DNA of 21,777 nucleotides from Streptomyces sp. NRRL F-5135 (lineage in GTDB: Bacteria; Actinomycetota; Actinomycetes; Streptomycetales; Streptomycetaceae), in the NCBI RefSeq assembly GCF_000719775.1, contig NZ_JOHR01000035.1, forward strand, positions 1 to 21,777. Direction: 5' to 3'. The position numbers were made by a program, and so were the translations under genes. Below, piece after piece: positions 20,193-21,777 of this stretch. Numbering within the stretch: the first letter of the stretch is position 1; every line of letters begins with the position of its first letter. Below the pieces are notes generated by a model. That model saw only the letters and a program-made list of their open reading frames with translations, was not told the origin of the DNA and did no database searches.

Positions 20193-20232
20193 CGGCGGGC
20201 GGCGGGCCCGGTACGACGCCGGGCGGCACGTG

Positions 20233-20274
20233 CGGGCACCGTACGGCACATGCCGGGCACCGTGCGGCACATGC
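20233..20274. repeat. Two tandem 21-bp repeats between the P450 genes
   Basis: CGGGCACCGT-A/G-CGGCACATGC occurs at 20233-20253 and 20254-20274 with one mismatch. A partial CGGGCGGCAC copy precedes it. Confidence 0.8.
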
Positions 20275-20282
20275 CGGCCGGG

Positions 20283-20316: not shown

Positions 20317-21517
20317 TCACCGTACGACGGGAGTGAACCGCACCGGCAGCGAGGTCAGCCCGCGCATCCAGATCGACGGCCGCCAGGTCAGCTCCTCCGG
20401 CTCCACGGCGAGCACCACGTCCGGCAGCCGCTCCAGCAGCGTCTCGATCGCGGTACGGGCGATGACGTCGGCCAGCAGCGGGCCGGGGTAGAGGCAGCGG
20501 TGCTCGCCGTTGCTGAACGACAGGTGCGCCGAGTTCTCCGCCCCGACATGCCCCTCGGGCCAGATCTGCGGGTCCGTGTTGGCCGCGGCGAAGCCCAGCA
20601 CGAGGCAGTCGCCCGCCTTGATGTGCCGGCCGCCCAGCTGGGTGTCCCGCACCGCCCACCGGCCGACGAAGTTCTGCGTCGGGGTGTCCAGCCACAGCAC
20701 CTCGTTGAGCGCGTGCCCCACACTGAGCCGGCCGCCCGACACGTTCAGCGCGAACCGGTCGTCCGTCAGCAGCAGCCGCAGCGTGTTGCAGATCCAGTTG
20801 GCCGTCGGCTGCTGGGCCGCGGCGATGACGGTGATCAGGTCCTGGACGACCTCCTCGTCCGTCAGCCCGGCCGGGTGGGCCAGCATCCGGGACGTGACGT
20901 CGGGACCGGGGCTGTTCCGCTTCTCCTTGACCAGCCGCTCCATGCGCTCCTGCACGCGCAGGTACGCGGCCACGGGGTCGTCGTCCTCGGGCGCGTCCAG
21001 CGAGATCTTCAGGTCCCGGACCAGGTCCTCGGTGTCCACGTCGCCCTGCGGTATCCCGCAGAGCTGGACCACCGCGCGCATCGGCAGAGCGTGCGCGTAG
21101 GAGGCCATCAGCTCGGCCTGCCCGCTGCCGGCGAACGTGTCGATGAGCCCCTCGGCGATCTGCCGGCACACATGGGCCAGTTCGAACTGGTCGACGGCCT
21201 CCAGCGCCTCGCTGATCACGCCGGCCCGCCGCTGGTGCTCCGCGCCCTCGGTGAACAGCAACGAGGGCTGGTAGCCGACGAACGGCATGAGCGGCCAGTC
21301 GTCCGGGATGTTGGGCCACTGGTTCCAGCGCCGTGAGTCCCGGGCGAAGAGGTCGTCGTGGCTGGTGACGTAGCTGACCTCGGCGTAGCCGAGCACCAGC
21401 CAGGCGGGGATGTCCCCGTCGAGCAGGACCGGGGCGACCGCGCCGTGCTCGCGGCGCATCGCCCGGTACAGCTGCGAGGGGGCCTGCGGGGCCGAGGGGG
21501 CCTGCGGGGTCGGTCAT
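20317..21517 (-). CDS. CYP157-like cytochrome P450 without ExxR, start frameshifted
   Basis: The intact frame from ATG 21459 encodes 380 aa. The heme loop FSNGEHRCLYPG (315-326, C322) is clear. The K-helix position reads E253-V-L-W256, so the ExxR arginine is lost, as known for the CYP157 family. The I-helix reads AAAQQPT (213-219) with no acidic residue. Such P450s accompany conservon operons, and here the gene follows a cvnD-like GTPase. The expected start is the ATG at 21517, overlapping the cvnD stop as ATGA, but that frame shifts away. With one C fewer in the run at 21506-21509 it would read MTDPQAPSAPQAPSQLYRAM straight into RREHGAVAPVLL. A real one-base insertion, a sequencing error, or use of the internal ATG at 21459 are the options. 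Catalysis as a monooxygenase is doubtful; a signalling or binding role is possible. Confidence 0.82.
21474..21509. repeat. 18-bp direct repeat at the CYP157-like N-terminus
   Basis: Two adjacent 18-bp copies (21492-21509 and 21474-21491, 17 of 18 identical on the minus strand) each contain a C4 and a C5 run. They encode PQAPSA/PQAPSQ in the P450 frame. The suspected extra base lies in the first C-run. Confidence 0.75.
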
Positions 21518-21777
21518 GGTGTCATCTCCCGGGCCATGGCCAGTTCGTAGAGGTGGTCCACGAGGGTGATCAGTACGTTCTTGCCGGAGGAGCGTACCCG
21601 TGCGTCGCAGTCGATCAGCGGGACGTGCTCGGGCAGCGACAGCGCCTGGCGGATCTCCGCCAGCGAGAACGAGGAAGCGTCGTTGTCGAACCGGTTGACG
21701 GCGACGACGAAGGGGGTCTTGTGGTGTTCGAGCCGGTCGATGGCGTACCAGGAGTCGCTCATGCGGCGGGTGTCGAC
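21514..21777 (-). CDS. Conservon GTPase CvnD-like (partial, 5' part beyond the window)
   Basis: The visible 87 residues are the C-terminal half of a small Ras/MglA-like GTPase of Streptomyces conservons. The frame enters from the window edge with VDTRR, then MSDSWYAIDRLEHHKTPFVV. VAVNRFDND holds the N(R/K)xD base-recognition motif, and LPEHVPLIDCDARVRSSGKN with VLITLVDHLYELA is the typical CvnD ending. Conservon operons (cvnA sensor-kinase-like, cvnB roadblock, cvnC DUF742, cvnD GTPase) form a membrane-associated complex similar to eukaryotic G-protein signalling, often with a P450 as fifth gene, as here. The remaining members should lie to the right. The stop overlaps the expected P450 start by 4 nt, indicating translational coupling. 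Confidence 0.88.
   Translation of the reverse strand, partial: VDTRRMSDSWYAIDRLEHHKTPFVVAVNRFDNDASSFSLAEIRQALSLPEHVPLIDCDARVRSSGKNVLITLVDHLYELAMAREMTP

Follow-up and report, generated by a model that had tools for sequence, protein, structure and literature searches.

A conservon-linked CYP157-type P450 in a Streptomyces draft genome, with a frameshifted start that is probably an assembly artefact

The end of one contig from Streptomyces sp. NRRL F-5135 raises the question of whether a P450 gene lying next to the small GTPase gene cvnD really begins in the wrong frame, as a switchable gene might, and of what a P450 with unusual motifs would do beside a conservon. The window, meaning the whole 21,777-nucleotide stretch analysed, is the complete contig C35 of the strain's 116-contig, 8.02-Mb draft assembly (G000). 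On its minus strand, the 3′ end of cvnD is followed directly downstream by the P450 frame; the upstream part of the strain's own cvnA-cvnB-cvnC-cvnD set is lost at the contig end, and its core is absent from the assembly. The features at this border are as follows:

21514 to 21777, minus strand: 3′ portion of the small GTPase gene cvnD, truncated where the contig stops; the homologous cvnD of locus L011 is recognised in Pfam.
21475 to 21517, minus strand: the cvnD-coupled ATG with the leader bases that precede the presumed break, reading MTDPAGPLGPAGPL in the ATG frame and containing an 18-bp repeat.
20317 to 21459, minus strand: body of the CYP157-type P450, 380 aa from the first in-frame Met (Pfam p450, E 4.7e-8).

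Convergent to this gene lies another P450 (18966–20192, plus strand; Pfam 127.5 bits) with an ordinary-looking haem region, and a 21-bp tandem repeat (20224–20277; 2.6 copies, 91% match) is situated between the two.

The cvnD stop TGA (21514–21516) overlaps an ATG (21515–21517) as ATGA, and this ATG is out of frame with the P450. The coordinates thus bear out both the overlap and the entry into the wrong frame reported in the earlier note, and they place a C4 run (21506–21509) inside the 18-bp repeat, as it had said. Of this repeat, 17 bp recur exactly (21493–21509 and 21475–21491, spaced 18), and two copies of the 17-bp repeat were found in 0 of 100 shuffles. The C4 run is itself unremarkable, given that 257 C/G runs of at least 4 occur in the window at a GC content of 72.6%. 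The further claim that removing one C restores a full N-terminus fails: dropping it would open a leader of only 19 codons, from which the LSGLEYQQTP segment, conserved at all orthologous loci (see below), is still absent. Since the ATG frame reads MTDPAG, resembling the MTDP start of the homologues' consensus, the reading frame seems to be right at the ATG and to be lost further on, near 21474/21475. Just before this point the P450 frame reads QAPS, which is also present in loci L025 and L064/L139; hence the break may lie further upstream, and part of the repeat may be genuine P450 sequence.

To see how such genes normally begin, 109 homologous loci (80 from a contig search and 29 from a genome search) were reduced by 8 duplicates to 101 distinct ones. 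Every one of the 101 carries a segment of the type [YFH]xx[TASN]P immediately ahead of the window's first-Met position, and 96 have a Cys-Pro further upstream in the leader. At 96 of the 101 loci an ATGA or GTGA start overlaps the end of an upstream ORF of more than 100 codons, and this coupled start lies 32–86 codons upstream of the first-Met position; two loci had little upstream sequence. Where the cvnD end was recognisable (97 of 101), the distance from the cvnD stop to the first-Met position is 92–254 nt, with one phase common to 96 of the 97. The window's spacer is 54 nt long, is in a different phase and is missing the LSGLEYQQTP segment; it is at least 38 nt shorter than that of any of the 97 orthologous loci measured. 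The comparison holds for these loci only, because in the more distant L135 (57% identical) the natural coupled leader spans just 22 codons, lacking GCPAH but keeping LSGPRFQAEP. The sole out-of-phase spacer among the 97 belongs to L045 (Streptomyces sp. Tue 6430); it measures 115 nt with the leader segment present, and its phase would be explained by a one-base indel, whether error or real. When the missing leader was searched for elsewhere in the strain's own assembly, matches at 88% spanned only residues 32–56 on C35 itself, and all others were at 63% or less. The leader comparison indicates that the 5′ end is not one base out and that a larger segment is missing, and slippage in the C-run was rejected on this ground.

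Two near-identical proteins are complete at this end. Of the 380 residues in the window's body, 378 are the same in P0004 of Streptomyces sp. NPDC095613, which extends 53 residues further upstream, while P0124 of Streptomyces hebeiensis, encoded on a 7.5-Mb contig, equals a paralogous CYP157 on the strain's own contig C7 in 375 of 378 residues and has a full N-terminus. At the two places where the window's body departs from P0004, its first Met (Leu in P0004) and position x of NIPxDWP (D instead of A), it has the residue of the C7 paralogue. The C7 gene is broken at the same border, where cvnD text runs straight into the P450; over the first 176 bp compared, it matches the window copy at 98%. 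What they share at their edges is listed here:

21679 to 21777, minus strand: terminal 99 bp of the contig, which recur unchanged as the terminal 99 bp of C7.
21376 to 21475, minus strand: 100-bp block identical to C7, beginning at the break (99 bp if counted from 21474).

C35 and C7 thus end on the same base and share exactly 99 bp there. Exactly 99 bp are also shared by the start of C4 and the end of C20, both of which end in a cvnA-like stretch. About 2.5 kb of the L011 conservon, lying between its match to C4 and its match to C35/C7, have no counterpart in the strain's assembly, where this stretch matches only other conservons or cvnD-like genes on C12, C1, C30, C18 and C14 at 68–77%. Two related conservons therefore seem to have a common core that is absent from the assembly, with flanking contigs that, on either side, end in exactly 99 shared bases.

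We consider it likely that the window holds an ordinary, selected CYP157 gene of the CvnE type, normally coupled by ATGA or GTGA, and that its broken start is an artefact of a k=99 repeat collapse or mis-join. The leader is kept at 101 of 101 loci and the coupled start at 96, against which the window's spacer is both short and out of phase; the near-identical P0004 and P0124 have full N-termini; and the C7 paralogue is broken at the same border, with paired contig ends. Block lengths of 99, 99 and 99–100 bases suggest that repeat nodes of a k=99 graph (k being deduced from these lengths) were glued together or dropped. On this account, the draft genome would hold two related conservons, whose common core would have been collapsed by the assembly and dropped out, with C4 and C20 as the presumed other sides of the two. 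At the cvnD/CYP157 border, copy-specific cvnD ends would have been joined directly to the common P450 5′ block, so that part of the CYP157 leader, at least 38 nt by comparison with the orthologues, was left out; the lost piece would not be a multiple of three, so that the coupled ATG looks frameshifted. Assembly error had been offered in the earlier note as the way its own reading might fall, and it is the nearest to ours, although the simple miscall of C4 for C3 that it envisaged does not account for a spacer at least 38 nt too short. Counted against the artefact is a common block of 100 bp rather than 99, although the length falls to 99 when the joining base is assigned to the left-hand pieces. 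Moreover, identity of the window to C7 continues past the block, with mismatches at 100, 160 and 163 and a rise in divergence only after about 210, so the block may instead reflect natural homology or gene conversion. The short natural leader of L135 also lowers the odds of an artefact slightly.

Alternatively, the CYP157 leader may truly have been lost in this strain, by deletion or by recombination between the two paralogous conservons, leaving the gene truncated or silenced. Identity of 98% over the first 176 bp is what gene conversion would leave behind, the window reads AM like the C7 copy where P0004 has TL, and the missing segment is nowhere in the assembly, a finding that both a deletion and an artefact predict. 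However, two paralogues of a single strain would each have had to break independently at this border, in each case next to a 99–100-bp block matching the contig-end overlaps, and in very close relatives neither copy has lost its leader; we therefore regard this alternative as unlikely.

An intact gene translated from MRREHG (21459), for example by reinitiation after cvnD, with the coupled ATG irrelevant, is very improbable. There is an in-frame ATG at 21457–21459 with the core motifs downstream of it, but the corresponding codon is Leu at 85 and Met at only 16 of the 101 distinct loci, and upstream of it P23, H25, G40, L41, Q45 and P47 are invariant in 38 aligned proteins. The earlier note had allowed that homologues might all start at this Met; of the 141 listed proteins, P0105 alone, encoded on a contig of 1342 bp, has its start no more than 10 residues away. 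With coupled starts 32–86 codons upstream at 96 of 101 loci, a start at MRREHG was rejected.

Hardly credible is the proposal in that note of a phase-variable C-run (21506–21509) switching the gene on and off, for which speak the differing ATG and P450 frames, the position of the run inside the 18-bp repeat and the short coupled leader of the distant L135, but against which stand a run of only four Cs among 257 runs of at least 4, a one-base change that does not return the conserved leader, and an exact junction found in the strain's own genome alone of the 392 searched. What is expected of a phase-variable locus, a repeat tract of variable length that restores an intact frame, is not what the window holds; the spacer is at least 38 nt short of those at the 97 orthologous loci measured and lies at a repeat edge of the draft assembly, and the C7 paralogue is broken too. 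The right half of the junction pattern matches exactly only in the strain's own genome among the 392 genomes searched, and the two matches with one mismatch, in G262 (L137) and G351 (L139), have intact leaders. A lineage-wide junction was rejected for the same reasons.

The motifs that set this P450 apart raise a separate question. They were compared in a homologue set of 141 proteins, made up of the best 120 of 2229 matches from one protein search and the best 120 of 427 from a second (21 of them new); the acid and Thr columns of the I-helix were assigned from an own-genome P450 with AGHETT. The features concerned are:

20803 to 20823, minus strand: AAAQQPT in place of the I-helix acid-Thr site, from the alignment of the 141 listed homologues.
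20692 to 20703, minus strand: EVLW in place of ExxR of the K-helix, with Trp for Arg in all 141 listed homologues.
20479 to 20511, minus strand: haem-Cys region NGEHRCLYPGP, in which Cys is retained (141 of 141 listed homologues) and CxG is not followed.

The Glu of ExxR is likewise retained in all 141. At the I-helix acid position 140 of the listed homologues have Gln and one has Arg, and at the Thr position 139 have Pro and two have Gln. EVLW and AAAQQPT are thus present as first described, yet family-wide: the motif losses are family traits and not peculiar to the window gene. Among own-genome P450s, 10 places fetched out of 32 matches were compared, of which 7 have Trp and 3 Arg at the ExxR Arg position. 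The seven with Trp are the window gene and L002, L003, L004, L005, L006 and L007, and they show a graded loss of the I-helix acid and Thr, from AAYETT (L005) to AGMQPL (L007).

The CYP157-type assignment is supported, with the Arg of ExxR and the acid-Thr pair lost, the K-helix reading ExxW instead of ExxR, and the haem Cys retained in the window as in all 141 listed homologues. The dN/dS of the body is 0.10–0.27 against 7 homologues tried (of 101 loci) and 0.43 against the C7 copy, and the former range, for those 7 of 101 loci, argues for purifying selection. Where a catalytic monooxygenase has ExxR and the acid-Thr pair of the I-helix, this protein has EVLW and Q-P. Judged by these motif losses, it would probably not be a classical monooxygenase; the product may instead be a haem-thiolate or ligand-sensing partner of the conservon kinase and GTPase. 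Most likely it would serve the conservon kinase as an accessory sensor or modulator. Tentatively, the whole clade could be read as a conserved pseudo-P450, a sensor of haem or of a ligand (gas, redox state or small molecule) feeding a sensor-less CvnA kinase, in view of the fact that, of the usual signatures, only the Cys is kept, Trp and Gln-Pro are almost fixed, and the gene is under purifying selection and coupled to cvnD. That the CYP157 of this clade works as a monooxygenase without the usual motifs is somewhat doubtful: the haem Cys is retained in 141 of 141 listed homologues and purifying selection would fit an enzyme too, but the ExxR Arg, the acid and the Thr are replaced across the same 141, and the portions of the literature covered hold no evidence of activity.

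Taken together, the window gene is probably a normal member of the known conservon-linked CYP157 family, and its frameshifted start is probably not a real feature. This removes a likely false lead, that of a phase-variable P450 switch, and provides an example of how repeat collapse in a draft genome can mimic a frameshifted coupled gene. The remaining interest is family-wide and concerns conservon-linked P450s, which have lost the usual catalytic sites and are nevertheless conserved next to a G-protein operon; their signalling role is a testable question already posed in print.

Among solved structures, the best relative by sequence is CYP154C1 (PDB 1gwi; E 2.1e-41 over P0004 residues 56–428), a canonical P450. 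The structure predicted for P0004 from an alignment with 37 relatives was of poor quality (mean pLDDT 49.9), and no conclusion here draws on it.

Within its own family, the window gene resembles Svu023, CYP157A2 and CYP157C1, as far as these appear in the part of the source available, in having EVLW for ExxR, Gln-Pro at the acid-Thr site, a link to a conservon and, in those proteins, a Cys followed by PFPA- or PYPAP-type text. Svu023, a CYP157A of S. virginiae, is given there with GHQPT, EVLW and HRCPFPA; the same pages state the link between CYP157 and the conservon, quote the 40% and 55% rules, and cite the CYP157 paper of Rupasinghe et al. 2006 (PMC3599690). Unlike Svu023-type CYP157, the window clade has AAAQQPT and HRC(L/P)YP. 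To L003, an own-genome copy with Svu023-like motifs, its P450 shows about 50% identity; with this figure and its own motif variants, the clade is probably another CYP157 subfamily under the 40% and 55% rules.

Like the CvnE accessory proteins of actinobacterial G protein systems, the P450 follows cvnD directly, in an order that is the same at the orthologous loci, with the coupled start at 96 of 101. In one relative's CvnA, that of L011, scanned from a start chosen by eye, only HATPase_c was found in Pfam. In the sections accessible, CvnA proteins that have no sensor domain are described as going together with genes for CvnE and CvnF, CvnE11 is positioned by AlphaFold2 against the HATPase domains of CvnA11 (PMC13343842), and P450 genes are reported for S. 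coelicolor conservons 9 to 12 (PMC8510531). The partnership with the conservon suggested for the window gene is upheld as probable, and it matches a proposal already published, so far as the sections consulted show (PMC3599690; PMC13343842).
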